Assembly (NCBI GenBank): GCA_944472135.2
Contig: OX235270.1
Span: 138,151,632-138,215,631, forward strand
Length of the DNA stretch: 64,000 nt
Source: Trichobilharzia regenti
Taxonomy: Eukaryota > Platyhelminthes > Trematoda > Strigeidida > Schistosomatidae
Direction of reading: 5' to 3'
Notes under the pieces: generated by a model
What the model was told of the DNA's origin: nothing
Database searches by the model: none
The model's input: only the letters and a program-made list of their open reading frames with translations
Program-made: the position numbers and the translations under genes
In this document: in pieces, positions 11,685 through 61,485 of the stretch
Position numbering within the stretch: the first letter of the stretch is position 1
Layout of the letters: each line of letters opens with the position of its first letter

Positions 11685-11830
11685 TTTCAAGTTTGGTCGC
11701 AGATCGGTAGAAGTTAGAATCCTTGCGCCAGTGAATTGGGTGCAAATAGCTAATCGGTCTACGAGGTCTCCTTGTTCCTGGAAGGTGCTGGGTTCAAACC
11801 CTCTATGGTGGTTGATCACGAAACGAAGGA
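11685..11830 (+). repeat. HHR-SINE-1 head fragment
   Basis: Contains GTAGAAGTTAGAAT, a degraded A-box region, CTCCTTGTTCCTGGAAGGT and the B box GGGTTCAAACCC. It matches the unit upstream of its hammerhead. The hammerhead itself is barely recognisable. Confidence 0.7.
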
Positions 11831-11883: not shown

Positions 11884-12465
11884 TCAGAGAGGAGTAGAGA
11901 AGTCTTTTCATAAAAGTAGACAAAAGTCTGGGTATGCTAAGAAACGATTGGGCAATTAATTATTTGATAAAAGAGGCTCAAGAGATTAAAATAATATCTA
12001 TACACACAGTGGCGATAATTTTATCATTCTCACCCCATTCTGTTCATTTATCTGATTTTCCAGATGTGAATATTTTATCGGAAATAAATCTGTTTAAGGT
12101 ATTTACTAAATACTTAGCGAATGTACTTTTGCAGTGAGTAGCATTTATTCTCCCGACATATCTCAGTTTCATATTTAGTTAACTTTGTAAAAATGTGATT
12201 GTGATGCTCACCAACCATTTTCAGTATGGGAAATTTTTAGAATTTACTGATGAAAAAAATCCATCTGATCATCTATTGGCTGTATTCGAAGTAAATATTT
12301 TCAGGAAGCGTCTTGCAGATATACCACTCCTAGATTGTATAATAATGTAATTATTGGGTGTATCACACATGGTATAAGACTCGTTTACTGACTAACGTTT
12401 CTTAAACACTTCATTATGCATAGTCATACCAACTAAAACTACGTAAATGTAAAACTATATTTGTA
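11884..12465. other. No gene seen
   Basis: AT-rich; a 67-codon open stretch at 11934-12137 has no domain and AT-driven composition. Confidence 0.4.
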
Positions 12466-12704
12466 AGATCTCATCAAAATTGAAATGAGTTATTAAAATG
12501 TTTGCTTCGGCAAACTGATCCGAACTTCTTCAGGAAAAGTAATCGAAATTAGAATAACAAATTTTGACATATAATAAAGGGCACATCTTTTTTTCATAAG
12601 CTTTATCCAATCATATGATTCATGAAACAGACGTCAAAATATGATTTAAAAGATTGCATGAACTGTGATCAACATTTCACCTCAGACTTAGTCTACTTTT
12701 GAAA

Positions 12705-13010
12705 TTTAATCGGTAGATGGTGAGTAGCAGTGGAATCCAGGATGTGCATTTCGTCCTATTTGGGACTCGTCATCCTGATGTACCTGCATTCCCTAGTGAC
12801 TGATGATATTCCCACCGAGGCTCGAACTCAATGCGCATAGTTTTAAACGCCAAAGCGTTATCCACTAGATCACTTGGGCCACAAGAGAGCCACCTCCTGC
12901 GCAACGGGTCATATCAATTATTTAATTCAATTTTAGATTTTCCTGTCGATTGATTGGACCGAAGTTCTCGGCCTCAGGTTGACATGTCCGGTCCTTGTGC
13001 AGATGCTTGA
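12705..13010 (-). repeat. HHR-SINE-2 (SMalpha-like) copy
   Basis: Minus-strand element with tRNA-like head (A-box region TGATCTAGTGGATAACG, B box GTTCGAGCC), hammerhead near 12731-12786 and the upstream GACATGTC segment. Same family as 61136-61485. Confidence 0.8.
12731..12786 (-). ncRNA. Hammerhead-like fold, core C3 changed
   Basis: Minus strand: stem II GTCCCAAATAGGAC, then GAAA, then a GTGCATC cleavage arm followed by CTGGATTCC. The core reads ATGACGA instead of CUGANGA, so the invariant first C is lost. Likely inactive. Confidence 0.6.
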
Positions 13011-13150
13011 AGCACCTGTGTCCTTTTTATGTAACAACCTTTGTTATTTTTATTCCGATTAAATTCCCTGGCGAAGTTTGGACCAGTTTGCTGAAGGAAA
13101 CATTTTAATGACTCATTTCAATTTTGATGAGATCTTACAAATATAATTCC

Positions 13151-18819: not shown

Positions 18820-19688
18820 CATTGCAAGTGTAGTGATTGAACGAACTTCTTCTGTATGCAGAGTTCAGGACTTAGCAAGTGAATCGTCATTGCCTCTGCA
18901 GTTTGAAGAAGTCTGATTTGTACACCTTTAGGAAGGCTACTTCGTATTCTGTAGAGGACTTTGAAGCTTGTTTCCGTTGTAGCTTGATGTCCGGAATCTA
19001 TCAGATGTTATAAGATGGAGCTGCGAGGGCATAGTTTTTCTCATTTGTAAAACCATGTTTGGGAAGCGAACTCTGGGTACGGCCGAAGTACCTGGCTCCA
19101 CACGAGCATGTGAATTGTTTAATACACACTGATGGGGCCAGTAGTTTTAGGTTATCATTCACGTCCATATGAATCATAGGTTTTGTGGAGAAGGTTAGTC
19201 GTAGTTCAGCTGCGAAGAATGTGTCCTTGAGTGGGTGCGACAGTCGATTTTTCAATGTTTCCGCAGATATATCTCCAATAAATTGAAGGCTCATATAGAG
19301 TAGTTTTTCCGGGACGCTAAGCGTGAGCGGCTTCTGGGGTCTAGGATTCATGGATTTTGCAATAAACCGTTCTAGACGAGGATTCTCTCGAGATTTTCTA
19401 CTTCATCTTCTATGGTGTCCGCTGTGCAAACTCCGCGAGCTCTATAGCTGAGTGAACGGACCAGGTTTCGTTTGGCGTATAGAGGTACACAACTGTGATA
19501 GTTAGTAAGCTATCTGTTCCATGTTGACTTTCTGCAGAAAGATCTTTTAAGTGTCCATCCTTTTCTCGTCTTGCTAGTTGAACGCCAAGAAAATATATTG
19601 TGGAGTAGAACTCTTTCTCCAGTGTGAACTGAATCGTGGGGTGGCAGTTGTTAAACGACTTCAAGATGTCATCTTGATTTTCCTCATT
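18820..19688 (-). pseudogene. PLE-B RT C-terminus and GIY-YIG endonuclease
   Basis: From 19688: DNEENQDDILKSFNNCHP and FLGVQLARREKDGHLK (RT thumb). Then the connector with LQFIGDISAETLKNRL, then FTCSCGARYFGRTQSSLPK (GIY-YIG core), and at about 18850-18990 the tail ASFKVLYRI-like segment and a CIQKKFV-type end. A few stops and frameshifts are present, but long stretches stay open (84 and 116 codons). This is the RT/endonuclease of a Penelope-like element. Confidence 0.85.
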
Positions 19689-19706
19689 GTCAACAATAAT
19701 GAAAGT

Positions 19707-21801
19707 TTTGTATAGTTTGGTTTGTAAGGATTAGTTATGTTTTACGGGTTGATCACGGATTGATATCAGTTAGAGAACCATTGAAAACCAGGGAGTACTG
19801 GACAGCTGCTGTTTCATCCTAGTTTGGGAATCATCGGCAGTACGCACCCACTGGGTTTCGAACCCGGGACCTTCCGGTTACAAGGCAAGCTCGTATACCA
19901 TTCAGCCACTGGGACCCGATTCAATGGCTCGTGAATTCTAACTTCTACTAATTCGTGATTTAGCGCGACCCCAACCATTGTCGTTGGTGGGACATCCATC
20001 CACACACGTGACATCTAGTTGGACCTCACTGGTCACGACTTCTCACTAGAACTCAGGAAACTCCAACCTGTAGCAAGTCACTAGCGAGCATCAGATTAAC
20101 TTTGTATAGTTTGGTTTGTAAGGATTAGTTATGTTTTACGGGTTGATCACGGATTGATATCAGTTAGAGAACCATTGAAAACCAGGGAGTACTGGACAGC
20201 TGCTGTTTCATCCTAGTTTGGGAATCATCGGCAGTACGCACCCACTGGGTTTCGAACCCGGGACCTTCCGGTTACAAGGCAAGCTCGTATACCATTCAGC
20301 CACTGGGACCCGATTCAATGGCTCGTGAATTCTAACTTCTACTAATTCGTGATTTAGCGCGACCCCAACCATTGTCGTTGGTGGGACATCCATCCACACA
20401 CGTGACATCTAGTTGGACCTCACTGGTCACGACTTCTCACTAGAACTCAGGAAACTCCAACCTGTAGCAAGTCACTAGCGAGCATCAGATTAACTTTGTA
20501 TAGTTTGGTTTGTAAGGATTAGTTATGTTTTACGGGTTGATCACGGATTGATATCAGTTAGAGAACCATTGAAAACCAGGGAGTACTGGACAGCTGCTGT
20601 TTCATCCTAGTTTGGGAATCATCGGCAGTACGCACCCACTGGGTTTCGAACCCGGGACCTTCCGGTTACAAGGCAAGCTCGTATACCATTCAGCCACTGG
20701 GACCCGATTCAATGGCTCGTGAATTCTAACTTCTACTAATTCGTGATTTAGCGCGACCCCAACCATTGTCGTTGGTGGGACATCCATCCACACACGTGAC
20801 ATCTAGTTGGACCTCACTGGTCACGACTTCTCACTAGAACTCAGGAAACTCCAACCTGTAGCAAGTCACTAGCGAGCATCAGATTAACTTTGTATAGTTT
20901 GGTTTGTAAGGATTAGTTATGTTTTACGGGTTGATCACGGATTGATATCAGTTAGAGAACCATTGAAAACCAGGGAGTACTGGACAGCTGCTGTTTCATC
21001 CTAGTTTGGGAATCATCGGCAGTACGCACCCACTGGGTTTCGAACCCGGGACCTTCCGGTTACAAGGCAAGCTCGTATACCATTCAGCCACTGGGACCCG
21101 ATTCAATGGCTCGTGAATTCTAACTTCTACTAATTCGTGATTTAGCGCGACCCCAACCATTGTCGTTGGTGGGACATCCATCCACACACGTGACATCTAG
21201 TTGGACCTCACTGGTCACGACTTCTCACTAGAACTCAGGAAACTCCAACCTGTAGCAAGTCACTAGCGAGCATCAGATTAACTTTGTATAGTTTGGTTTG
21301 TAAGGATTAGTTATGTTTTACGGGTTGATCACGGATTGATATCAGTTAGAGAACCATTGAAAACCAGGGAGTACTGGACAGCTGCTGTTTCATCCTAGTT
21401 TGGGAATCATCGGCAGTACGCACCCACTGGGTTTCGAACCCGGGACCTTCCGGTTACAAGGCAAGCTCGTATACCATTCAGCCACTGGGACCCGATTCAA
21501 TGGCTCGTGAATTCTAACTTCTACTAATTCGTGATTTAGCGCGACCCCAACCATTGTCGTTGGTGGGACATCCATCCACACACGTGACATCTAGTTGGAC
21601 CTCACTGGTCACGACTTCTCACTAGAACTCAGGAAACTCCAACCTGTAGCAAGTCACTAGCGAGCATCAGATTAACTTTGTATAGTTTGGTTTGTAAGGA
21701 TTAGTTATGTTTTACGGGTTGATCACGGATTGATATCAGTTAGAGAACCATTGAAAACCAGGGAGTACTGGACAGCTGCTGTTTCATCCTAGTTTGGGAA
21801 T
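19707..21801 (-). repeat. Minus-strand array, 5.3 units of HHR-SINE-1
   Basis: Units start at 19707, 20101, 20495, 20889 and 21283; the partial one starts at 21677. Each has an A box (TGGCTGAATGG), B box (GGTTCGAAACC), hammerhead and 3' tail. The partial unit begins, in its own sense, within hammerhead stem II. Each unit also contains an identical 66-codon frame (first at 19814-20014) that only reflects the SINE sequence. Confidence 0.95.
19795..21419 (-). ncRNA. Five hammerhead folds with U4C core change
   Basis: Located at 19795-19843, 20189-20237, 20583-20631, 20977-21025 and 21371-21419. Stem I GTACTG/CAGTAC, stem II TCC/GGA, GAAA, stem III ACAG-CAG-CTGT and cleavage GTC are all kept. 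The core reads CCGATGA, so invariant U4 is C. Predicted weak or inactive. Confidence 0.8.
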
Positions 21802-21810
21802 AATAATAAT

Positions 21811-22988
21811 AACTAATCCTTACAAACCAAACTATACAAAGTTAATCTGATGCTCGCTAGTGACTTGCTACAGGTTGGAGTTTCCTGAGTTCTAGTGAGA
21901 AGTCGTGACCAGTGAGGTCCAACTAGATGTCACGTGTGTGGATGGATGTCCCACCAACGACAATGGTTGGGGTCGCGCTAAATCACGAATTAGTAGAAGT
22001 TAGAATTCACGAGCCATTGAATCGGGTCCCAGTGGCTGAATGGTATACGAGCTTGCCTTGTAACCGGAAGGTCCCGGGTTCGAAACCCAGTGGGTGCGTA
22101 CTGCCGATGATTCCCAAACTAGGATGAAACAGCAGCTGTCCAGTACTCCCTGGTTTTCAATGGTTCTCTAACTGATATCAATCCGTGATCAACCCGTAAA
22201 ACATAACTAATCCTTACAAACCAAACTATACAAAGTTAATCTGATGCTCGCTAGTGACTTGCTACAGGTTGGAGTTTCCTGAGTTCTAGTGAGAAGTCGT
22301 GACCAGTGAGGTCCAACTAGATGTCACGTGTGTGGATGGATGTCCCACCAACGACAATGGTTGGGGTCGCGCTAAATCACGAATTAGTAGAAGTTAGAAT
22401 TCACGAGCCATTGAATCGGGTCCCAGTGGCTGAATGGTATACGAGCTTGCCTTGTAACCGGAAGGTCCCGGGTTCGAAACCCAGTGGGTGCGTACTGCCG
22501 ATGATTCCCAAACTAGGATGAAACAGCAGCTGTCCAGTACTCCCTGGTTTTCAATGGTTCTCTAACTGATATCAATCCGTGATCAACCCGTAAAACATAA
22601 CTAATCCTTACAAACCAAACTATACAAAGTTAATCTGATGCTCGCTAGTGACTTGCTACAGGTTGGAGTTTCCTGAGTTCTAGTGAGAAGTCGTGACCAG
22701 TGAGGTCCAACTAGATGTCACGTGTGTGGATGGATGTCCCACCAACGACAATGGTTGGGGTCGCGCTAAATCACGAATTAGTAGAAGTTAGAATTCACGA
22801 GCCATTGAATCGGGTCCCAGTGGCTGAATGGTATACGAGCTTGCCTTGTAACCGGAAGGTCCCGGGTTCGAAACCCAGTGGGTGCGTACTGCCGATGATT
22901 CCCAAACTAGGATGAAACAGCAGCTGTCCAGTACTCCCTGGTTTTCAATGGTTCTCTAACTGATATCAATCCGTGATCAACCCGTAAA
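21811..22988 (+). repeat. Plus-strand array, 3 units of HHR-SINE-1
   Basis: Units start at 21811, 22205 and 22599. tRNA-like heads run at about 22024-22095, 22418-22489 and 22812-22883. The last unit stops at CCCGTAAA next to the target duplication. Confidence 0.95.
22098..22934 (+). ncRNA. Three hammerhead folds with U4C core change
   Basis: Located at 22098-22146, 22492-22540 and 22886-22934. Same sequence and same CCGATGA core as the minus-strand array, as expected if one RNA templated both arms. Confidence 0.8.
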
Positions 22989-23290
22989 AATAATGAAAGT
23001 GTCGTTTACGTATCTCTTATAGATTTCTGAGGTATCGATCATTTTCTTCAGGCATATGTTTTCGAGTTCTTCCATGAAGAAATCTGCAAGCAGTGGGCCT
23101 ACTGGTGAGCTCATACTACACCGTTCTCTTGGTGGTATATTTCGTTGTTAAAAGAGAATTTAACTTTTAGGGTACACCTCAGTAGGAGTTCTTTATGACG
23201 CTCGGTGGGTATACCGATGTTTATTCCTTTGAGTGATGTGTAATCTATTGGCACAGAACACTCCAGACATTCTTGGCATAAAGGATTAAA
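22989..23290 (-). pseudogene. PLE-B RT core, 5' part of the split gene
   Basis: Minus-strand reading: IDYTSLKGINIGIPTERHKE, then FSFNNEIYHQENGVV, a segment matching GSPVGPLLADFFMEELE in another frame, then YKRYVNDT. The catalytic motif expected as YVDD is YVND, so one catalytic aspartate is lost. The protein continues in frame across the array at 19706. Confidence 0.85.
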
Positions 23291-27315: not shown

Positions 27316-27875
27316 CATATGACTCAATGGGGATTTTCAAGCTACTTCAACTTTGCAAGGACCCAGTGGCGGTGAAGGAGCTGGATGGTTTCCTGCGTTA
27401 CTCCGTCAAGTTTGCGGTAGCGAAGACATAGATGAATTTCTTAAAGAAATATTTGTTCAATGAACAAAATCTTTGCGTTTCCTTTCAGTGCTTCCCTCAG
27501 ATACTATCAGTTATGTAAACCTGATTTGGTAGTGCTTAAATTAAATGTGACTAAACACAACTATTGAGTATTGAAAAAGTCACGCATGTACACTAGTTAT
27601 TTTCGTCCATCGTAAGTTTCTGTGGAAAAGAAACCTACTGCATTTCTTTAATTCAATTTCTTCACACAAATATGAAATCATTTTTCCTTTCGTTGGGATT
27701 GTTAGCATGAATACATATGTCGATATTTTAACAGATCCAGAGCATACAAGCATTTTGAAAGATACGCACCTAAAATACACTGTAGGTGAACAAACATATA
27801 CTTATTCATTACAGAATTCTTCTAAAACCAATTTAGAGTAAGTGTTCAAAAAAATAATGAAAATGTTTCAAAAAA
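27316..27875. other. No gene seen
   Basis: AT-rich spacer; a 66-codon minus-strand open stretch at 27580-27780 has no domain. Confidence 0.4.
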
Positions 27876-30184
27876 CGAGTGCAGAGAAGAAAATTTTCTT
27901 TTCGACGAAATCATCAACTAGGCTGTACATTCGTGTATTTATGATAAATGTGTGGGAAAGTTCCAGAATAATTTTCGGTCAAGGGTCAAACTAATAAAAT
28001 TACAATTAGGAATTAAAATGCCATAATAAACACGGGGGACGGATAAAACTCAAACGAAGTAGCACTATAAGTACTGAGAAGATTGATATATATTGTGCAA
28101 TTGGGGGCTAGAAATGTAGAAACAACAAAAATAGACAGGATGTTTGGACAAAAAATCTAGTGGGTTCATAACTAATGGGACGAATAATTGTTTGTGCAGT
28201 CAGGGAGTAAATATGCGGAAATAATAAAATGATAAAATAGACAGGAAGTTTAGATATGAAAATATGGTAGTGTAAATAGGGATTGAGAAAAACTTAAAAA
28301 TAAGATGAATAAACAGGAAGTTTGGATAAGAAAGGTAATAGGATGGTCATTACTAAAAGAATTACCTATGTTATGATGGCCATGGCAGGCACAACGGTGG
28401 GATACATAGCGTGGGTTTAAGCTTTCGTGTAGCTAGTGGCTCGGCTATGCCCAGATGTCTTAATTGATAGGTTCGATCGAATCTTGTATATTATTTTGAA
28501 GGACTTTTCAAATGGCGTTGAATGTCCTAAATTTACCAGATGTTCTATCACTGAACTATATACACGTTTTCATTGTCCTATTACTAGCCAGACTGGATAG
28601 TGTTCACGAGCGCGTTTTTCAAGTTGGCGCATGTTATGGTCGATGTACTGAACCCTGCACGAATAAGTAAACTGGTATATGTACGATGAAATATTTCAAT
28701 GCGACAGATTGTCTTTCGCGTTCTAGGTGAACAGTTTTTTACAGGAAAACGTTAGTCGTAGGCTCTCGGAGAAAGATTTTTTTCTGAGATTTAGAGAGGT
28801 GTTTACTAAGGCTTTCTGCTTCAGTGTCACCTTTGAATTCTAGATTAAGCAGAAGCATCTTCTTCAGGACAGATCGGACTTGTTCAATAGTCTTGATTTG
28901 AGATTCTTGTCTATGAACCTGAGCGGAAGACCGTTTTCCACCCGAGTCCCTCAGAAATTACTCAGTTCTGCGTCAATCACTTGCTCGCTGCATATCTTCC
29001 AAATCCTCGAGGAAAGAGCGTATATCAAGGTCCCCTTTCTGCTTAGAAGCACGAAGGTTTGAAAGTTCATGAATTGTCCATTCCATGTAGGCTTTTTGTA
29101 TATGGACATTTTCAGAGAGTTGTTGGCGTTTCTTTTCAGATGGACATTGAGGAAGTGGCACATTCCGCCGGACTTAGTAAAGTCTGTGTTTTGGTGATCA
29201 CTGTTGAAGGATTGAAGTAAGTTTTCTAGGTTTATGTTCTCATGACAAATGACGAAAGTGTCATCAATCTATCTCTTGTAGAGATGGAGTTCGTCGACAG
29301 TTGATGGAAAAGAGTTGTTTTCTAGGCTAGCCATAAAGCAGTCAGCAAGGTGGGGTCCTGAGGGAGAAGCCATTGCTACTCCATCTACATGCCTGTGTAT
29401 TTCGTTGTTGAAACCCAAGTATACATTGAAACTGCATTGTAGTAATGTGCTTGTGAACACTATCCAGTCTGGCTAGTAATAGGACAATGAAAACGTGTAT
29501 ATAGTTCAGTGATAGAACATCTGGTAAATTTAGGACATTCAACGCCATTTGAAAAGTCCTTCAAAATAATATACAAGATTCGATCGAACCTATCAATTAA
29601 GACATCTGGGCATAGCCGAGCCACTAGCTACACGAAAGCTTAAACCCACGCTATGTATCCCACCGTTGTGCCTGCCATGGCCATCATAACATAGGTAATT
29701 CTTTTAGTAATGACCATCCTATTACCTTTCTTATCCAAACTTCCTGTTTATTCATCTTATTTTTAAGTTTTTCTCAATCCCTATTTACACTACCATATTT
29801 TCATATCTAAACTTCCTGTCTATTTTATCATTTTATTATTTCCGCATATTTACTCCCTGACTGCACAAACAATTATTCGTCCCATTAGTTATGAACCCAC
29901 TAGATTTTTTGTCCAAACATCCTGTCTATTTTTGTTGTTTCTACATTTCTAGCCCCCAATTGCACAATATATATCAATCTTCTCAGTACTTATAGTGCTA
30001 CTTCGTTTGAGTTTTATCCGTCCCCCGTGTTTATTATGGCATTTTAATTCCTAATTGTAATTTTATTAGTTTGACCCTTGACCGAAAATTATTCTGGAAC
30101 TTTCCCACACATTTATCATAAATACACGAATGTACAGCCTAGTTGATGATTTCGTCGAAAAGAAAATTTTCTTCTCTGCACTCG
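27876..30184. mobile_element. PLE-B copy with 732-bp inverted arms
   Basis: The left arm 27876-28607 and right arm 29453-30184 have identical length (732 bp) and look essentially identical as inverted copies, so the event is recent. The 845-bp spacer holds the RT and GIY-YIG start of a minus-strand PLE-B. The left arm continues that element into its C-terminus and 3' region; the right arm is a second copy of the same 3' region in plus orientation. No clear target duplication was found. Some PLEs have inverted terminal repeats, so the shape can be read as element structure or as an inverted insertion. Confidence 0.9.
28480..29480 (-). pseudogene. PLE-B reverse transcriptase and GIY-YIG relic
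   Basis: From 29460: LLQCSFNVYLGFNNEIHRHV, DGVAMASPSGPHLADCFM (RT palm), then a stop and IDDTFVICHENINLEN, where the catalytic pair DD is kept. Next LNVHLKRNANN, IYKKPTWNGQ (thumb) and, near 28620-28690, YQFTYSCRVQYIDH, a decayed GIY-YIG core. The tail with LATRKLKPTLC lies in the left arm. Several stops; not functional. Confidence 0.85.
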
Positions 30185-30465
30185 GTTATTTTATAATTGT
30201 TTTGATCGAATGTGGATATTCCGTTAACTAATGGAATTCTCAAGGTTTGTGTTAAAATTATGTGAAATCCATTACTCTGACCAATTTTGTCTTATTTGTC
30301 CCTAATTTGTTTTAATTACGTTTTCATTCTTATAATAAGTTCTGCATCTGTGAGGAGATTAAGAACAAAGAGTGTTACAAAACAACATGGATTTAATTTA
30401 TTTCGTCGGTTCTTGTCAGCTGCGTAAACCTTATTATCTTTAATAATATAAGTTAGCGTAAAATT
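30185..30465. other. No gene seen
   Basis: Spacer; 30395-30430 (TTTCGTCGG, GTCAGCTGCG) resembles the unclassified motif at 4045 and 37045. Confidence 0.3.
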
Positions 30466-34489: not shown

Positions 34490-34845
34490 TGACGCCATAC
34501 GAAAACACGGGAGCAGTGGACAGCCACTTCATCCCCTTCTGAGAATTTTCAGCAGTAGATACTCACCACTGGGGTTTGAACCCAAGGCCTTCCAGTTAAA
34601 AGGCGAGCTCGTAGACTATTCAGCTGCTGAGACGCAGTCTAATCGCCCATGAATTCCAACATTTGCCAGTTAACTATATATTTATGTCACGGAAGAGTAG
34701 CTAACTCCTACCTGACTTTTTGGCCCAGATGGTTATGACTTCTGACTACAATTCGAAAAAACTTCCTGTATAGAGCCAAACAGTAATCAGCACAAGCTGA
34801 ATATAATATCAGTTACAGGTTTGATCACGACTTGACATCATATCG
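34490..34845 (-). repeat. HHR-SINE-1, slightly more than one unit
   Basis: Tail, degraded hammerhead (34500-34560), B box GGGTTTGAACCC-type, head GCTGCTGAGACG, the upstream region GACTTCTGACTACAATTCG, and then the start of the next unit's tail (GGTTTGATCACGACTTGACA). So the insert is longer than a monomer. Confidence 0.75.
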
Positions 34846-35356
34846 AACCCCAGTGAATGCGTCTCAAAGTAAGACGAAGAAAAGTGTCAGTACTTCCAGG
34901 CTCTTCAAGAGACGTCGACTCATGATCAAATCTGTTACCAATAAAATTCTTGCGAACCAACACCTGATGATACTAAATTTCATCAAGAAGTGCACATTCA
35001 AAAAGTATTACTTCGAAATAGTTTAAATAGTGACCGGATGTGAATACATTTTATCTTCATCATTACTGATGCATTATTTTTTGTCATAACAACTTACTAT
35101 TTCTGGCTTTGCGAGACAGGAAGGCAATGATTTACTGGTTCAATTTTTAAAAAAATATGAGTAATTTTGACATTCATAAATGAACATTCAAAGGTAAATA
35201 CTACTACAATTCTGGTACTCTTGGAAATAGTATGAGCTGTTTGAGACTACAGTTTCGTAAAACTGAGTGAGCTACAAAACTTCGTAGTTTGAAATCTGAA
35301 AATGCAAAAAGCAGATATTTTGGGATTATTCATCGTATAATACTTTCATTGCATTG

Positions 35357-40880: not shown

Positions 40881-40911
40881 TCTATAAATTTCTATCAAAA
40901 TCAAACCTAAT

Positions 40912-41275
40912 CTGTTGCTAACTAGTCACTGACTAAAAGACCAAGCTACCTGGAGTTCATTTGAGAAGTCGCGACTAGTGGGATCCACCAAACCGGAAGT
41001 GAGGACAAAGACTCACCGATGATGTTGGCTGGCGGTCGTGCTAAAATCACCAAGTGACAGAAATTAGAATTCATGCGAAGTCACTGGATTCTGTCCCAGT
41101 GGCTGAGTGGTGAACGAGCTTGAACTTGTCAACTGAGTGCGCTGGTTTCACTCCCTGGTTGGGGTTGAGGATGCGTACTCCCGAAATGTTCCAAACTCGG
41201 ACAAAACTACTGTCCAGTACTCCTTAGTTTCCAGTGATTATCTCAATGACATCGATCCGTGATCAAAATTGAAAC
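40912..41275 (+). repeat. HHR-SINE-1 full-length diverged monomer
   Basis: All parts in order: upstream region, CCCAGTGGCTGAGTGG A box, degraded B box, hammerhead region (GTACTCCCGAAATG, then GGACAAAACTACTGTCC) and tail. The ribozyme core is lost. Confidence 0.8.
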
Positions 41276-42650
41276 AATTTAAATCTCTACAGAATAACCC
41301 CTCAAGACACTCATTGCAATCGCTTATTATCTTAATTTTATCTAATTTTATCCACAGTTGTTGAATCTGTCTTAGTTTATATATGTAGCATTCATTTTCT
41401 GATTATGGCTACTCTGTAGGATGACTAACCAAAATTGTGAGATCAGGCATATCTCTTGGGAGAAGAGATTATTACATGTGTCACTCAGAGATTATTACTG
41501 CCTAGTCCACCGGAATGAAGCCCATTCCATACCAAAATAATGTCGGCTGTTTGTTTTTACTTGACACCTTTCATCTTTGTCTTGAATATGCTGTATAGTC
41601 ACACACAGCCTTATACGAAAACGGCCATCTAGGGCCATGAAATTTACAGCTTTCGTTGATTTGTATGAACATATTAGATATTACAGTATAACACACTAAT
41701 AATACTTTTGAAAAACACATTTGTCCAAATTTTGTTCGCTCTTTTCTGATAGGCAAACATTTTCAAAAGAAATCACTTACATTTGATGCTATCAGTTGAT
41801 TTCAATGTCAAAAAACTTTTGGTAAATTGTGCGCTACACAAAATTTCTTGGCAGCACATATTTTCGAAAGATCTTATAAACATCTTTTGAATAGCTGAAA
41901 TTATTTTCTTCAAAATGTTTGGTGTGAAAATAAAGCAAACATTTCAATTCTAAGTCAACCTAATGATCCTACTTTATTTGGTCACATTTCGTTGTGCTTT
42001 TGTGTGTTTGCATGAGATATCGTAAGTGTGTCATATACTAGATGTCATAATAGATAAATAATTGTATTTCTGGAAATATTTTTTTGCAGCAATATGTTTA
42101 TTTTGTTTATTTCAAACATAAACTTTTTAGCCATATGGTATTATTTGTCTTCTTCAAGAATTTTTAATAAACATCTCTGCCATTTGTGAAAAAAGTTGTT
42201 TTCTAAAACGAAATTTTCGACAGAATAGGGTTTTGTAAAAAAAATTCAGAAACTTCATTTTCACTCGTCAGCCCTACAGTGAGTGGGTGATGGGTGATTC
42301 AAGGTGATGTGAAAATCTCTATGATAGCACAACCTCAACTGGCAGAGCAGAACAATTGTAACGGTAGATTATAGTGAAATTTAATCGCAGAATTATTTAT
42401 TTTTCGAAGTGATAGAAAAAATTGCAAAAAATCAATTTGCAAAAGTTATCTGTAATCTGTTTATTCTCCATTTTCTTGTCATACTTCCAGTAGAGTTCCA
42501 CAAAGATCTTACCGTTCCCTTCCCCCTCAGAACTTAATCCATTGTGTCGCAACTGAAGATTCTCGCAGATTGCACCCCATATAATATCCTGCTTACTTCC
42601 CAATTTAAAGTGCATGATTGTTTATAATGCCATGCAATGAAGGATTATAT
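41276..42650. other. No gene seen
   Basis: AT-rich spacer; minus-strand open stretches at 41571-41756 and 42397-42615 have no domain. Confidence 0.4.
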
Positions 42651-46015: not shown

Positions 46016-47265
46016 CCTCTGATGTTCCTTTTTTAAACTGTATCACTGTGTGTTATTTCAAATAAATTTCTAACTATTTAGCTTTTAATTTTTACATGGT
46101 AACTGAGTTAAGCTGCTTGCAGTTAATAATAACAAACGAAACAAATTCACATCGTGTTATTCTGAACAGTTTGCTTTGTTCAAGTTCATCCGGGGACTGA
46201 ATTGTATAATGCATCAAAGTCTTTTGGGGAATTTTTCCACAACAAGGATATTTAATAACCTCAGTCAAAAGTGTAAACTGTTCTATTTCAATATCTCAGA
46301 AATACAGCCTTCACAGACAGTAAAAAGCTTCTGTCTCACTAGTTTGTATCAATGAAATTCGAAATACTTGGAGAAATTTGTTTAATTATCTGTATTGCAC
46401 GTTTCTCTGATTACTTCCTCATATTAAACTGATCTTTCTTTCTGTGGTTAAGATGTACAAAGCATGACCTGACAGCTGACCTTATAAAATGTCGCGCTGC
46501 CTCTAAACTCTGACACGCATACATAGGCGTCATGAATACTAAGCTAAATTTGGAATACAACTGATATTTTTACATCTGAAACCGTAAAAGTTCGAATAAG
46601 CCTACAAAACCTGCGTGCAGCTGTATGGAAGAGATTCGAACACAGACGTTAAGTCGCCATTTTTTTTTCTATTAACTGATGAATTCGTGAATAACAACTA
46701 TTTAAAGAGGCGATGAAAAATATTAACAGTCGCAGAAAAAGTGGTAAATAACAACTTTATATAATTTAAAAAAAGACAGAGACAACAACAAAAAGAAACT
46801 TACATTACTTTGATACGTATTCTGTTTTGGTGCAGTAACTCGATCAGTTCTTCTCGTGAACACACTGTTTCAAAATTAATAAGAAAACACAAACATGTGA
46901 TGTTTGTTATGTTTATTAATTGGCGTGACATGTATCACAAACAAGTCTGTAAAAACTGTCTAATCCTCTTGGGAGAGAAAAACACATTCCTAATAATAAT
47001 ATTAACAACATGAAATTAATTTTTGAGAACAACAAAAAGCAGACAGTTGAAAATATCACACTATGCAGAGTTTCCTTTAATTAATGGGAAGTAGTCCAGA
47101 GATCTAATTTAAAAGAAACACAGAACGAAATTGTATATACATGCAATTACTGTTTTTTTAACATGTATTAGCCAACCTTGTATAATTTTCTAGGTGGTCA
47201 GTTAAATCCAGTAAAGTTTAACCATTATTATTTTCCAGGAGTTTGTCTGTGGAGATTTGATTTGT
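46016..47265. other. No gene seen
   Basis: AT-rich spacer. Confidence 0.4.
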
Positions 47266-47267
47266 TC

Positions 47268-47655
47268 CAGGTTTGATCACGGATTGTGATCAATCGGAGA
47301 AACACTGTGAGCCAACAAGGAATACTTGACATCTGTCTTCTCCTATTATGGGACTCATAGGTGGTAGACATCCCGCCACAGGGGGGTTCGAACTCACAAT
47401 CATGTGTTTACAAATCAAACTTGTGGACTATTGGGTCACTGGGACCTGAATCAATGACCAGCTTCTAACTTCTAACAATTAATGGTTTTAGCTTTGTAAT
47501 GGTTTAAGAGCCTCCCTTGTAATCTGAAGGTTGTGAGTTTGAACTTCTGTGGTGAGTGTGTACCGACGATAAGTCCCAAACTAGGAAGAAAAAGATGTTC
47601 ACCACTCCCTGGTGGTTTTCACTGATACTTTGATCAGAATGAATCAATGACCAAT
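47268..47655. mobile_element. HHR-SINE-1 back-to-back pair
   Basis: Minus copy 47268-47495 (B box on minus GAGTTCGAACCCC) and plus copy 47496-47655 starting inside the A-box region (TAATGGTTTAAGAGCC), with GATAAGTCCCAAACTAGGA hammerhead remains. Both tails face outward. No clear target duplication was found. Confidence 0.75.
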
Positions 47656-47809
47656 CTTATAAACATTTTTATGCATAAAATCACAAAATTTGAACTTTGG
47701 AGTAAAACTAAGTCCCTCAAAGTTGCTTTTAACTTCTGGCTACTTAATGGTTACATTTACTAAATTAGTATTCACGATTCTTTGCCCAAAAGTTCTGCAT
47801 TACCAATAC

Positions 47810-48959: not shown

Positions 48960-49121
48960 TTCCATTATAGATAAGATTTATTTTGATAAATCGCACAGTG
49001 TTTACAGTTATATCAGTTATATCAGTTCATATAACTGTAAACACTGTGCGATTTATCAAAATAAAATCTTATCTATAATGGAATTATACTCTACCACAGT
49101 GCCCAAGTTTTATAGTTATAT
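48960..49121. mobile_element. PLE-C terminus hairpin, 14-bp TSD
   Basis: Perfect target duplication CAAATATTCTATGG (48946-48959 and 49122-49135). Left arm 48960-49013 is the inverse of right arm 49035-49089 with one indel. The right part goes on to the terminal CTACCACAGTG and TTTTATAGTTATAT. Both 3' sides face outward. The duplication follows directly after the RTE tail. Confidence 0.9.
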
Positions 49122-53394: not shown

Positions 53395-53437
53395 TTCAAA
53401 GCTATGGTTACAGGGTTTTCATCATGAGCTGATATTA

Positions 53438-53878
53438 TTGAATTGAATTTTTGATTTTCCCGTCGATTGATTGGCCTGAAGTGCTCGGTCTCAGGTTGAC
53501 ATGTCCGGTTCTTGTGCAGATGATTCGACGATGATGTCTGGGCATTTAATCAGTATACAATTGGTGGATGGTGGCTAGCAGTGGAATCCAGGATGCACAT
53601 TTCGTCCTATTTGGTCGCATTCGGTTCAATCAATCGACGGGAAAATCTCAAATTCAGTTAAATAATTAATACGACCCGTTGCACAAGGGGTGGCTCTCCT
53701 GGCCTAATTGATCTAGTGGATAACGTTTTGGCGTTTGAAACTATGGGCACTGGGTTCGAGCCTCGGTGAGAACATCATCACCACTCACTGAGAAATGCAA
53801 GTACACCCAGATGAAGAGTCCCAAATGGGACGAAATGCGCATCCTGGATTCCACTACTAGTCACCGTCCACCAGTTGT
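53438..53878. mobile_element. HHR-SINE-2 back-to-back pair nested in HHR-SINE-1
   Basis: Flanks ATGAGCTGATATTA (53424-53437) and ATGAGCTGTTATTA (53879-53892), 13 of 14 matching. Minus part 53438-53628 begins in its own sense at the hammerhead stem II; the plus part from 53629 is nearly identical to 61190-61480. Plus hammerhead near 53808-53856 has core ATGAAGA. Confidence 0.9.
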
Positions 53879-54124
53879 ATGAGCTGTTATTAGTTAAAGA
53901 ACCATTGGAAAACCTGGGATCACTGGACAGTCGTTTCGTCCTAGTTTGGGACTCTTCATCAGTATGCACCCGCCACAGGGGTTCGAAACCAGGACCTTCT
54001 GGTTACAAGGCGAGCTCCTAGACCATTAAGCCACTTGGACCCGATACAGTGCCTATGAATTCCATGGTATGCAAGCTCGCCTTGTAAACAGAAGTTCCTG
54101 GGTTCGACCTCCTGTGATGGGTGC

Positions 54125-54170
54125 GTACTGCTGAAGACTCCCGAACTAGGACGAAACAGCAGTCCAGCAT
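54125..54170 (+). ncRNA. Hammerhead-like fold (HHR-SINE-1)
   Basis: Core CTGAAGA and GAAA are intact and stem I GTACTG/CAGCAT is partly kept. The first stem II pair is lost (C opposite C) and stem III is shortened (ACAGCAGT). Borderline. Confidence 0.55.
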
Positions 54171-54268
54171 TCCCAGATTTTCCAAGGCTGTCTAACCAAT
54201 ATCAACTCATGCTGAAATCCTGTAACCAATCAAATCCCTACAACCCAACACTTGAATTTCAAAGCTAT

Positions 54269-54315: not shown

Positions 54316-54414
54316 ATAAATAGTAGATATGTGTAAAACACTTCTGAATAGACTTAGTTAGAAGTGAAAAAAATCAGTAAAGCCTTCACCATATTCTTCG
54401 TTTTAACTTGGTAT

Positions 54415-54720
54415 ATGTTGGCTAGCAGTTGATTAGAGGATGAGCACTTTAACCTATTTGGAACTCGTCATTTGGATAGACCCGCTTTCTTCAGTGAATT
54501 TCGGTATTCCCACTGAGTCCTGACTTTATTGCCCATCATTTCAAACACCATAGTGTTATCCACTTAAAGATTAGTAACACGAGAGCCACCTCTTGTTATA
54601 ACTTTGGTAAGAACATCATCACTCGGTGGGAATTTCAGGTACATCCACATGATAAGAACAAAGTAGGACGAAATGCGCGTCGTGGACTCCACTGCTAATC
54701 ACCATCCGCCAAACTTTTTC
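54415..54720. mobile_element. HHR-SINE-2 back-to-back pair, old
   Basis: Minus part 54415-54602 (hammerhead 3' strand, TTATCCACT and GAGAGCCACCTCTTG head). Plus part 54603-54720 starts just after the B box (GGTAAGAACATCATCACTCG) and holds a decayed hammerhead (GTAGGACGAAATGCGCGTC). Tails face outward. Confidence 0.75.
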
Positions 54721-58004: not shown

Positions 58005-58559
58005 CACTGGGGTAGTATGTGATTACGTATCAAGTTGTTTATTAGATATGTCACACAGTTAAACAGTATTATTTACTGGATGACATTTCCAAAACAATTT
58101 ATTTTTCATAATCATATCAATTGTAATCACACGATTCGAAACTTGAGTTTTATAGTTTTCTGTATTCTTTTCTATTTGTCGTAGGGGTAGTCAAATTTTC
58201 CAGATATCCAAATCGACAGGTTTTGACTGATGCCCATTACATGTATTTACAGTTGATTCGATAAACAAAGCTTCGGTCATCAATCTCTCCCTCCATTCAC
58301 CCTATTATATTATATTTTAAAACTGTCATTTTATTCCATCCTATTTTGTGGTTGTATGTAACTGCATGTAGTGCTATAGCTGAACTATTCGCCAGATTTA
58401 TCGTCTCATTTGGGTCAACCAATCTAGATTTTGCTAGGTTTTTATGTTTGGCTAATCTGACCGCTCTTGTTCAACTAGTTTGACCTATGTATTTGACCTG
58501 ACAATCACTGCAGTCAGGCAGTGTATTAGATAAACTAAATTGTTTTGTTTTAAAGGCTC

Positions 58560-60299
58560 TACCAAACAACTAGGAACCTTTCGGGCAAACGTTCGACACA
58601 GATTAAGCCAATAAAGGACGACAATGGAAAGTCAATCACCAAAGAGGTGGAACAGAGAAAGCACTGGGTTGAACACTTCAAAAGACTTCTAAATCGTCCG
58701 CCACCTACAACACGTCCAGCAATACCAACAACGGAAGCAGAACTACCAGTGAACACTGACCCCCCGACGAAATCAGAAGTCCTGAATGCAATCAAGATGC
58801 TTAAAGCTGGGAAAACACCGGGACCAGATGGAATCCCAGCAGAGGCTTTGAAAATAGACCCAGAGACAACAGCGGACTTGATGACACCACTGCTGGAGAA
58901 GGTGTGGAAAGAGGGCAAAGTACCCGAGGATTGGAAGAACAGTTACTTATTCAAACTTCCAAAGAAAGGAGACTTAAGTCAATGTAAAAACTGGCGTGGA
59001 ATTATGCTTCTGTCCATTCCAAGCAAGATACTAAGTCGCATCATCCTGGAGAGAATCAAACAAGCCCTAGATGAAAAACTTCGTCCGGAACAGGCTGGAT
59101 TCAGGAGAAACAAATCATGTATTGATCAAATCGCCACTCTACGGATCATCATTGAACAAAGCTTGGAATGGCAGTCACCTCTCTATCTCAACTTCATCGA
59201 CTTTGAAAAGGCCTTCGACAGCGTCGATCGAGAGGTCATTTGGAAACTACTTCGCTACTACGGGGTCCCATCGACAATTATACACCTCATCCAACAGTTA
59301 TACGACAATGCTGCATGCCAAGTAATCCACAACGGGAAACTTACGGAAGCCTTCGAAGTGAGGACGGGAGTGAGGCAAGGCTGTCTACTATCACCAATGA
59401 TCTTCCTGATTGCAATTGATTGGATAATGCGACAGACAACGGCAACCAACGAGGGAACAGGCATAAAATGGACTGACACAAAAGACTTGGAGGATCTGGA
59501 TTTCGCCGATGATATATGTCTGATTTCCCATAAACTGGAAGATATGCAAGTGAAAAGTAACAAGTTGGCAGAAGAAGCATCAAAGATAGGACTTCACGTG
59601 AACATAGATAAAACAGAGATGATGAAGATTCCTAGCCAACATCAACAACACCAACAGACCACAATAAGCATAAATGGGAAGAACCTGAAAGAAACAACCT
59701 CCTTCACCTACCTGGGAAGCATCGTCTCAACTACAGGCGGAACTGACGAGGACATCAAAGCCAGAATCGGAAAAGCAAGACAAGCTTTCATTACTCTCAA
59801 ATCTGTGTGGAGGTCAACAGCAATCAGCATCAAAAATAAGATCCGGATTTTCAACTCCAATGTGAAGTCAGTGCTACTATACGGATCAGAGACTTGGCGA
59901 GTCATAAAGAGCATCTCAAACAAACTTCAAACCTTCATTAACAACTGTCTCCGCTCAATACTCAAGATCAGATGGCCAGAAAAGATCAGCAACAGGGATC
60001 TCTGGGAGCGAACCAATCAGGAACCGATTGTGAAACAAATAGGCAGAAAGAAATGGAGATGGATTGGCCATACGCTGAGGAAACCATCAAGTGACATCAC
60101 TAGACAAGCCATCGCTCGAGTGGAACCCGAAAGGGAAGCAGGCGGCGAGTTGGTCGTCAGTGCGAGGGTGACTTGGAGGAGGTCATGTGAGGAGGAGATG
60201 AAAGCATGTGGACAGACCTGGAGCAGGGTGAAAAAGTTGTCAGAAAACCGAAGTCAATGGAGGTGCGCAGCTGAAGCCCTATGTTCCTCTAGGAACTAA
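58560..60299 (+). CDS. RTE-clade reverse transcriptase, 5' truncated, open frame
   Basis: Open for 579 codons from the insertion boundary to a stop at 60297. There is no ATG near the front; numbering here is from the in-frame GTG at 58647. Motifs in order: AGKTPGPDGIPAEALK (about 53-68), FIDFEKAFDSVDR (183-195), GVRQGCLLSPMIFLIAIDW (about 242-260), FADD catalytic site (286-289), YLGSIVSTTGG, VLLYGSETW (409-417), and the C-terminal KKWRWIGHTLRKP and WRRSCEEEMKACGQ blocks. RTE LINEs use this enzyme for target-primed reverse transcription. It lacks the N-terminal APE endonuclease and any promoter of its own, so it is probably not expressed as a working element, although the RT has all catalytic residues. 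Confidence 0.9.
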   Translation, partial: YQTTRNLSGKRSTQIKPIKDDNGKSITKEVEQRKHWVEHFKRLLNRPPPTTRPAIPTTEAELPVNTDPPTKSEVLNAIKMLKAGKTPGPDGIPAEALKIDPETTADLMTPLLEKVWKEGKVPEDWKNSYLFKLPKKGDLSQCKNWRGIMLLSIPSKILSRIILERIKQALDEKLRPEQAGFRRNKSCIDQIATLRIIIEQSLEWQSPLYLNFIDFEKAFDSVDREVIWKLLRYYGVPSTIIHLIQQLYDNAACQVIHNGKLTEAFEVRTGVRQGCLLSPMIFLIAIDWIMRQTTATNEGTGIKWTDTKDLEDLDFADDICLISHKLEDMQVKSNKLAEEASKIGLHVNIDKTEMMKIPSQHQQHQQTTISINGKNLKETTSFTYLGSIVSTTGGTDEDIKARIGKARQAFITLKSVWRSTAISIKNKIRIFNSNVKSVLLYGSETWRVIKSISNKLQTFINNCLRSILKIRWPEKISNRDLWERTNQEPIVKQIGRKKWRWIGHTLRKPSSDITRQAIARVEPEREAGGELVVSARVTWRRSCEEEMKACGQTWSRVKKLSENRSQWRCAAEALCSSRN

Positions 60300-61135: not shown

Positions 61136-61485
61136 ATCCATCCACCAATTGAATACTAATTAAATGCCCAGACATCGTCGAATCATCTGCACAAGAACCG
61201 GACATGTCAACCTGAGACCGATCACTTCGGACCAATAAATCGACGGGAAAATCTCAAATTCAGTTAAATAATTAATACGACCCGTTGCATAAGGGGTGGC
61301 TCTCCTGGCCTAATTGATCTAGTGGATAACGTTTTGGCGTTTGAAACTATGGGCACTGGGTTCGAGCCTCGGTGAGAACATCATCACCACTCACTGAGAA
61401 ATGCAAGTACACCCAGATGAAGAGTCCCAAATGGGACGAAATGCGCATCCTGGATTCCACTACTAGTCACCGTCCACCAATTAAA
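61136..61485 (+). mobile_element. HHR-SINE-2 monomer, 11-bp TSD
   Basis: Duplication TATATGACTCA (61125-61135 and 61486-61496) around 350 bp. The insert begins and ends with TCCACCAATT, so it is one unit plus a short overlap. A-box region CTAGTGGATAACG, B box GGGTTCGAGCC, hammerhead near 61416-61466 with stem II GTCCCAAATGGGAC, GAAA and core ATGAAGA (first C lost). Not inverted. Confidence 0.92.

Follow-up and report, generated by a model that had tools for sequence, protein, structure and literature searches.

A two-armed, multi-unit insertion of a hammerhead SINE in Trichobilharzia regenti with an anatomy resembling that of Penelope-like elements

We analyzed a 64,000-nucleotide stretch of the Trichobilharzia regenti genome (assembly GCA_944472135.2, contig OX235270.1, positions 138,151,632 to 138,215,631; below, the window, in whose coordinates all positions are given), which contains a two-armed tandem array of a short interspersed nuclear element (SINE) bearing a hammerhead ribozyme motif. 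The locus is likely to represent one retrotransposition of this 394-nt tRNA-like SINE by the enzyme of a Penelope-like element (PLE), in which a multi-unit RNA would have been copied from primers at both ends of the cut target. The array lies within a target-site duplication and splits an open frame that is restored by its removal, and its two arms start at two different positions of the same unit. Elsewhere in the window, two further insertions of the family have like pairs of ends. The coordinates of all features are listed in Table 1.

The array is bracketed by a 12-bp direct repeat, AATAATGAAAGT, the copies of which delimit a 3.3-kb segment (19695-23000). An earlier reading made from the letters alone (below, the sequence-only reading) had described such a duplication around 5.3 and 3 apparently identical units on opposite strands, and our measurements agree with it: the copies are the same at 12 of 12 positions, the arms amount to 5.32 and 2.997 units, and a single periodic 394-bp unit fits both arms with no mismatch over the 3,276 bp aligned. 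The unit counts are those of the assembly. In its exact register the duplication has a chance probability of about 1.3e-7; when any register in the flanks is allowed, one of 150 random window pairs was equally good. The filler at the joint of the arms, given earlier as 9-10 bp, is the 7-bp AATAATA. It is similar to the start of the target duplication, as would be expected of a copy of target sequence or a product of slippage. The left arm has its inner end at unit position 270 and its outer, tailed 3' end at position 394; the inner end of the right arm is at position 363 and its tail-less outer 3' end at position 360/361, the final base of this arm (22989) being also the first base of the right duplication. 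Both outer ends lie on the 3' side of the SINE and both carry AAA, as had been seen, yet they fall at different unit positions, which had escaped notice.

The flanks of the array are coding-like on the minus strand. When 120 bases of each flank are joined with one copy of the 12-bp repeat, a single frame stays open across all 84 codons and spans a YV(N)DTF-like motif. Since the flanks rejoin into one open frame resembling reverse transcriptase (RT), the array would be one insertion; the restored frame and the duplication together bear out the single event that had been proposed earlier. Judged by this frame, the array evidently interrupted an older reverse-transcriptase gene. The RT and endonuclease remnant of the target is presumably Penelope-like, by its motifs. 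The endonuclease piece beside the array matches a protein labelled T. regenti with 70% identity over 74%, and both of its two relatives at E <= 0.01 carry this label. A PDB sequence search with the target gave nothing useful, and one protein search was also empty.

Table 1. Features of the array, its target and other elements of the window
Feature	Coordinates	Strand	Remarks
Left target-site duplication AATAATGAAAGT	19695-19706		12 bp
Left arm of the array	19707-21801	sense on minus	2,095 bp = 5.32 units of 394 bp
G-free AC-rich tail	19707-19739	minus	33 nt (unit 362-394); outer 3' end of left arm
Filler AATAATA	21802-21808		7 bp, at head-to-head joint
Right arm of the array	21809-22989	plus	1,181 bp = 3 x 394 - 1 = 2.997 units
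A-box-like TGGCTGAATGG of tRNA-like part	22033-22043	plus	one example; unit position 193; by motif
B-box-like GGTTCGAAACC	22077-22087	plus	one example; unit position 237; by motif
Degenerate type I hammerhead	22098-22146	plus	one example; cut would come after 22140
Internal copy of the tail	22202-22234	plus	one example; between two right-arm units
Right target-site duplication AATAATGAAAGT	22989-23000		12/12 against left copy
Target, upstream part of RT-like frame	23001-23120	minus	joins flank and one duplication copy into open frame
Target, downstream part, RT and endonuclease remnant	19001-19694	minus	open frames, two frames
Presumed PLE-like copy	27870-30190		inverted arms of 747 bp (99% complementary) around an RT remnant
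Older head-to-head pair, first family	34502-34961		left arm seems to pass unit boundary into preceding unit
Older two-armed insertion, first family	47232-47659		left tailed, 96 nt past cut; right tail-less, 60 nt
Older two-armed insertion, first family	53406-54257		left tail-less, 65 nt past cut; right tailed, 93 nt
Second hammerhead SINE family, two-armed	53438-53878		head to head; nested in first-family arm
Long open RT frame	58554-60299		581 aa, RVT_1

The array unit is 394 bp long with 47% G+C, and no open reading frame (ORF) of at least 100 aa lies wholly inside the array. Despite the A- and B-box-like motifs, ARAGORN detected no tRNA in the unit. The description of the element as a hammerhead SINE holds as far as the motif itself is concerned, but the motif is degenerate: it scores 30.3 bits, below the Rfam cut-off of 34, one core U is replaced by C, one stem II pair is broken, and whole-window hammerhead scans list no array unit. 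Changes of this type would be expected to cripple cleavage. The scans do list three older copies of the same family (below, the first family), of which two have hammerheads above the cut-off (46.1 and 38.0 bits) and the third has one below it (26.3). The 33-nt tail is 79% A+C; no 33-mer of the unit is richer, but ten overlapping ones starting at positions 350-362 tie with it. It sits in a G-free stretch of 38 nt, the longest in the unit (the next longest has 12 nt).

Measured from the predicted hammerhead cut, the arms of the array start at 94 nt (left, tailed) and 60 nt (right, tail-less). Copies of the family outside the array are only 66.5-82% identical to the array unit and are therefore products of older events. 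Two of these older insertions, at 47 and 53 kb, are also two-armed. Across the three insertions, the distances are 94, 93, and 96 nt for the tailed ends and 60, 65, and 60 nt for the tail-less ends, every insertion having one end of either kind, an outcome with a chance of 1/8 if arms pick their sites randomly; the argument rests on three insertions in 64 kb, one of them with a weak duplication. The fourth two-armed insertion of the family, the head-to-head pair at 34 kb, has indeterminate ends, and the pairing is thus seen in three of four. The 53 kb insertion is flanked by TTCAAAGCTAT, identical at 11 of 11 positions (53395-53405 and 54258-54268; equalled by none of 150 random pairs), and its left arm is split at 53438-53878 by a nested insertion that belongs to another hammerhead family (below, the second family). 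For the 47 kb insertion, a candidate duplication matches at 11 of 13 positions (47219-47231 and 47660-47672).

The remaining copies of the first family tend to end in the same places. By profile or alignment, 11 of the 13 family matches outside the array end in one of the two zones, the matches at 34502-34679 and 11701-11814 ending in neither. Seven of the 11 are copies without a duplication: four of these end 58, 61, 63, and 65 nt past the cut, and three fall in the tail zone by profile, at 73, 84, and 85 nt. For the 34 and 11 kb copies the tail-zone call is profile-based, the measured distances being 73 and 84 nt. Around the copies at 26 and 8 kb, a search for a duplication gave none or a chance-like one only. 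In the 34 kb pair, the left arm seems to extend over the unit boundary into 3' sequence of a preceding unit. The upstream part scores 79, compared with a maximum of 51.8 in 300 shuffles, but by itself the piece assigned to the preceding unit reaches a profile E-value of only 0.081; arms longer than one unit may not be confined to the array. Finally, the copy at 40907-41299 was considered as a one-lap monomer, found to have an ambiguous duplication and 5' edge, and not used as an argument for a circle.

The head-to-head orientation is common in the window. Among same-family neighbours at most 200 bp apart, both hammerhead families considered, five pairs are head to head, none is tail to tail, and one is in the same direction. 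Random placement yields on average 0.2 head-to-head pairs, and five were reached in none of 100,000 trials. This test used hand-entered coordinates and excluded the array. It took 13 first-family matches with E <= 3.4e-7, omitting nine weaker profile rows, among them 34855-34810 and 53441-53405, which later proved to resemble parts of real copies; of the second family it took 10 of 13 rows, omitting two with E near 0.6 and one first-family cross-match. Several fragments can derive from a single insertion and are then not independent of each other, so that the test bears on orientation and proximity alone. The nested second-family insertion at 53 kb has a 14-bp duplication matching at 13 positions, which none of 150 random pairs equalled. 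The copy at 27870-30190, which we take to be Penelope-like from its motifs, also has arms that read as head to head from their frames, and it looks recent.

The second family itself offers several side observations. By eye, the arms of the nested insertion end at sites much further apart, and its left arm crosses a unit boundary. Another head-to-head pair with a 7-bp gap is located at 54409-54711, where a quick look found no duplication beyond a chance-like one. Two identical type I hammerheads of this family, each scoring 58.4 bits, lie 7.6 kb apart (53805-53849 and 61411-61455).

PLEs provide the closest parallel to the anatomy of the first family. According to PMC11167929, the purified PLE protein of Anolis cuts and extends both strands, with a preference for AT-rich targets. 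Reverse transcription begins internally, at a pair of neighbouring RNA sites without homology to the target, and the interval between the two forms the 30-40 bp tail. Starts fall most often in an AC-rich stem-loop located 111-118 bp into the ORF. The hammerhead cut, at 26 bp, precedes this stem-loop by 85-92 nt, which is the spacing of cut and outer site if the stem-loop is the latter (PMC11167929). Top and bottom strands showed no start-site difference, hammerhead mutants insert equally, and the main in vitro substrate is unprocessed RNA. In PMC3846280, natural copies are described with head-to-head pseudo-long terminal repeats (pLTRs), one of which carries a 31-bp tail, and with 8-10 bp duplications in some copies and none in others. 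The SINE insertions share with these elements the head-to-head arms with outward 3' ends, one arm with a tail of some 30-36 nt, internal starts at two adjacent sites whose distance from the hammerhead cut is similar, an AT-rich target, a short duplication, and tandem units. They differ in that the SINE is non-coding and tRNA-like, with arms of 3 and 5 units in the array. Given the match in orientation, tail length, restriction of the tail to one arm, hammerhead distance, and duplication length, we infer that PLE-type machinery primed these insertions, a conclusion drawn from insertion anatomy.

The following scenario would best account for the array. A Penelope-like enzyme would nick the two strands of the target 12 bp apart, and each target 3' end would prime reverse transcription inside the SINE RNA, at adjacent sites in the AC-rich tail, 94 nt past the hammerhead cut for the left arm and 60 nt for the right arm. 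The template would be a multi-unit RNA, either a circle or a linear multimer, yielding copies of 5.3 and 3.0 units, and the two cDNAs would then be joined head to head with the 7-nt filler between them. The sequence-only reading had also invoked priming from both target ends on a template longer than one unit, and these elements are supported by the anatomy; its attribution to twin priming, of the type known for long interspersed nuclear elements (LINEs), is not. In LINE twin priming the arms do not overlap, and the 3' end of the element is found on one arm only. The array resembles LINE-1 twin priming in having an inverted copy within one target duplication and both strands primed. In contrast to it, both arms begin at the 3' side of the element and overlap by whole units, there is no poly(A), and the start sites, about 34 nt apart, recall the PLE tail. 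It was the presence of the 3' side on both arms, together with the whole units they have in common, that led us to reject LINE-1 twin priming.

Several observations weigh against a PLE-driven origin. Neither Pfam nor NCBIfam gives a useful match for the PLE-like pieces of the window, none of its PLEs shares sequence with the SINE profile, and the structure model of P0121 is poor (mean pLDDT, the predicted local distance difference test score, of 45.5) and unfit for structure search. No duplication was found for the copy at 27870-30190, and no tail could be seen in it by eye. The predicted fold of the AC-rich tail is weak. The duplication score of the 47 kb insertion was reached by 12 of 150 random pairs. 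The end of the profile was fixed by hand-trimmed sequences, and plain BLAST stops the 11 kb copy before the tail and also ends the 40 kb copy earlier. Lastly, PMC3846280 attributes the inverted arms of PLEs to self-priming.

If both arms were reverse transcribed, the form of the template has to be considered. A read-through transcript of a tandem array with dead hammerheads, which could not be cut to monomers and would be copied from both target ends, is a serious candidate, though we stop short of calling it probable. The hammerhead lesions would keep such a transcript multimeric. The in vitro use of unprocessed RNA as the main substrate of the PLE protein and its tolerance of hammerhead mutants (PMC11167929) are in line with this, and in Schistosoma mansoni such repeats have been described in tandem arrays (PMC8490949). 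From an array that is young and homogeneous, the transcript would leave nearly the same product as a circle. The source array would need to be perfectly homogeneous, however, to leave no difference in 3,276 bp, and the TTTT at unit position 314 would tend to stop RNA polymerase III, so that some other read-through would be required.

Alternatively, the template could have been a circular RNA of exactly 394 nt on which the primer of each strand ran several laps; this is possible, if a little less favored. In other animals, hammerhead repeats have been documented as circular monomers, and these have been proposed as RT templates yielding multi-unit cDNA (PMC7229834, PMC7761336). A single molecule would give identical units, and the right arm ends 1 nt short of three laps, beside its own start (unit 361 to 363), a coincidence within one base of about 1%. 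This coincidence was spotted post hoc, and an enzyme parked at a start site on a linear multimer would fit it as well. Further, the left arm makes a non-integral 5.32 laps, and the core change, the lost stem II pair, and the sub-cut-off score make the usual route to a circle doubtful. Of the circular or multimeric template suggested in the sequence-only reading, the multi-unit part stands, while the circular, retrozyme-like form is not established: the hammerhead is degenerate and a linear multimer explains nearly everything. Between the two, we lean slightly to the linear multimer.

It is improbable that the array began with roughly one unit in each arm and grew after insertion through unequal crossing-over or replication slippage. 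Unequal exchange shifts whole units, consistent with the right arm, and of the three older two-armed insertions of the first family, two have arms shorter than one unit. Such amplification would have had to expand the two arms separately, yet they are mutually identical, and in the older 34 kb copy, too, one arm apparently exceeds a single unit. Still less credible is self-priming, in which one primed cDNA folds back and copies itself, as proposed for Adineta PLEs whose joints contain palindromes (PMC3846280). In the array the inner ends are at unit positions 270 and 363 and the joint is not palindromic; the outer ends are 33-34 nt apart, where a fold-back copy would be expected to mirror the first arm. 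Identical inverted repeats are prone to palindromic or repeat-driven misassembly, but an assembly artefact is the least plausible of all, as it would mirror one flank and one end, whereas the ends of the array differ by 33-34 nt and its flanks are two halves of one open frame split by a single 12-bp duplication.

A retrotransposition by PLE-type machinery from a multi-unit RNA thus remains our preferred explanation of the array. The window also contains another potential helper, the long RT frame at 58554-60299, which we assume to be of the RTE type. It is 97% identical over its length to a T. regenti protein, the best of 2,392 matches, and possibly belongs to a young LINE. Mobilization of the SINE by this element through a common 3' end was considered and rejected, no first-family profile match being found directly downstream of the frame; a weak profile row at 61315 corresponds to a second-family copy. 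Among other features, 125-bp inverted arms (84%) flank a second-family SINE copy at 12453-13148 and could, as a guess by eye, be solo PLE pLTRs around captured DNA. A near-perfect AT-rich palindrome at 48978-49064, with a sub-cut-off mir-3688 score on both strands, is more likely a hairpin resembling a miniature inverted-repeat transposable element.

The hosts of the hammerhead repeats SMalpha and Sjalpha belong to the same parasite family as T. regenti, and the second hammerhead family of the window presumably is closer to SMalpha than the array family is. Compared by description, as given in PMC8490949, the array family resembles SMalpha/Sjalpha and the W-elements in being a short hammerhead repeat with dispersed and tandem copies. 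According to PMC7229834, animal retrozymes have tandem units of approximately 150-450 bp, less than 50% G+C, and duplications of more than 4 bp, and the type I hammerhead motif, 394-bp tandem unit, 47% G+C, and 12-bp duplication of the array resemble those of the non-LTR (long terminal repeat) retrozymes of animals, a likeness that extends to its having no ORF of at least 100 aa wholly inside. Unlike these, the array is two-armed with a tail on one arm, and in place of the intact type I hammerhead that characterizes retrozymes its unit has one that is below the cut-off and, with its core and stem II lesions, probably crippled.

PLEs have been suspected as retrozyme helpers (PMC7229834). The open-licence PMC papers listed by our searches likewise mention PLEs in this suspected role; a tail signature on hammerhead SINEs was not found among those listed, and an earlier description is possible. 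A 2020 review states that animal retrozyme repeats have no conserved motif that would reveal the helper retrotransposon (PMC7761336). Paired ends about 60 and 94 nt past the hammerhead, with one on each arm, would fill this gap. Our broadest proposal, which we advance tentatively, is that a PLE enzyme could carry out rolling-circle reverse transcription of a circular SINE RNA from both strands and so produce a satellite-like array in a single insertion, the AC-rich tail being the recognition module by which schistosome hammerhead SINEs may borrow the PLE machinery. The array illustrates a way in which one step could seed a tandem satellite.

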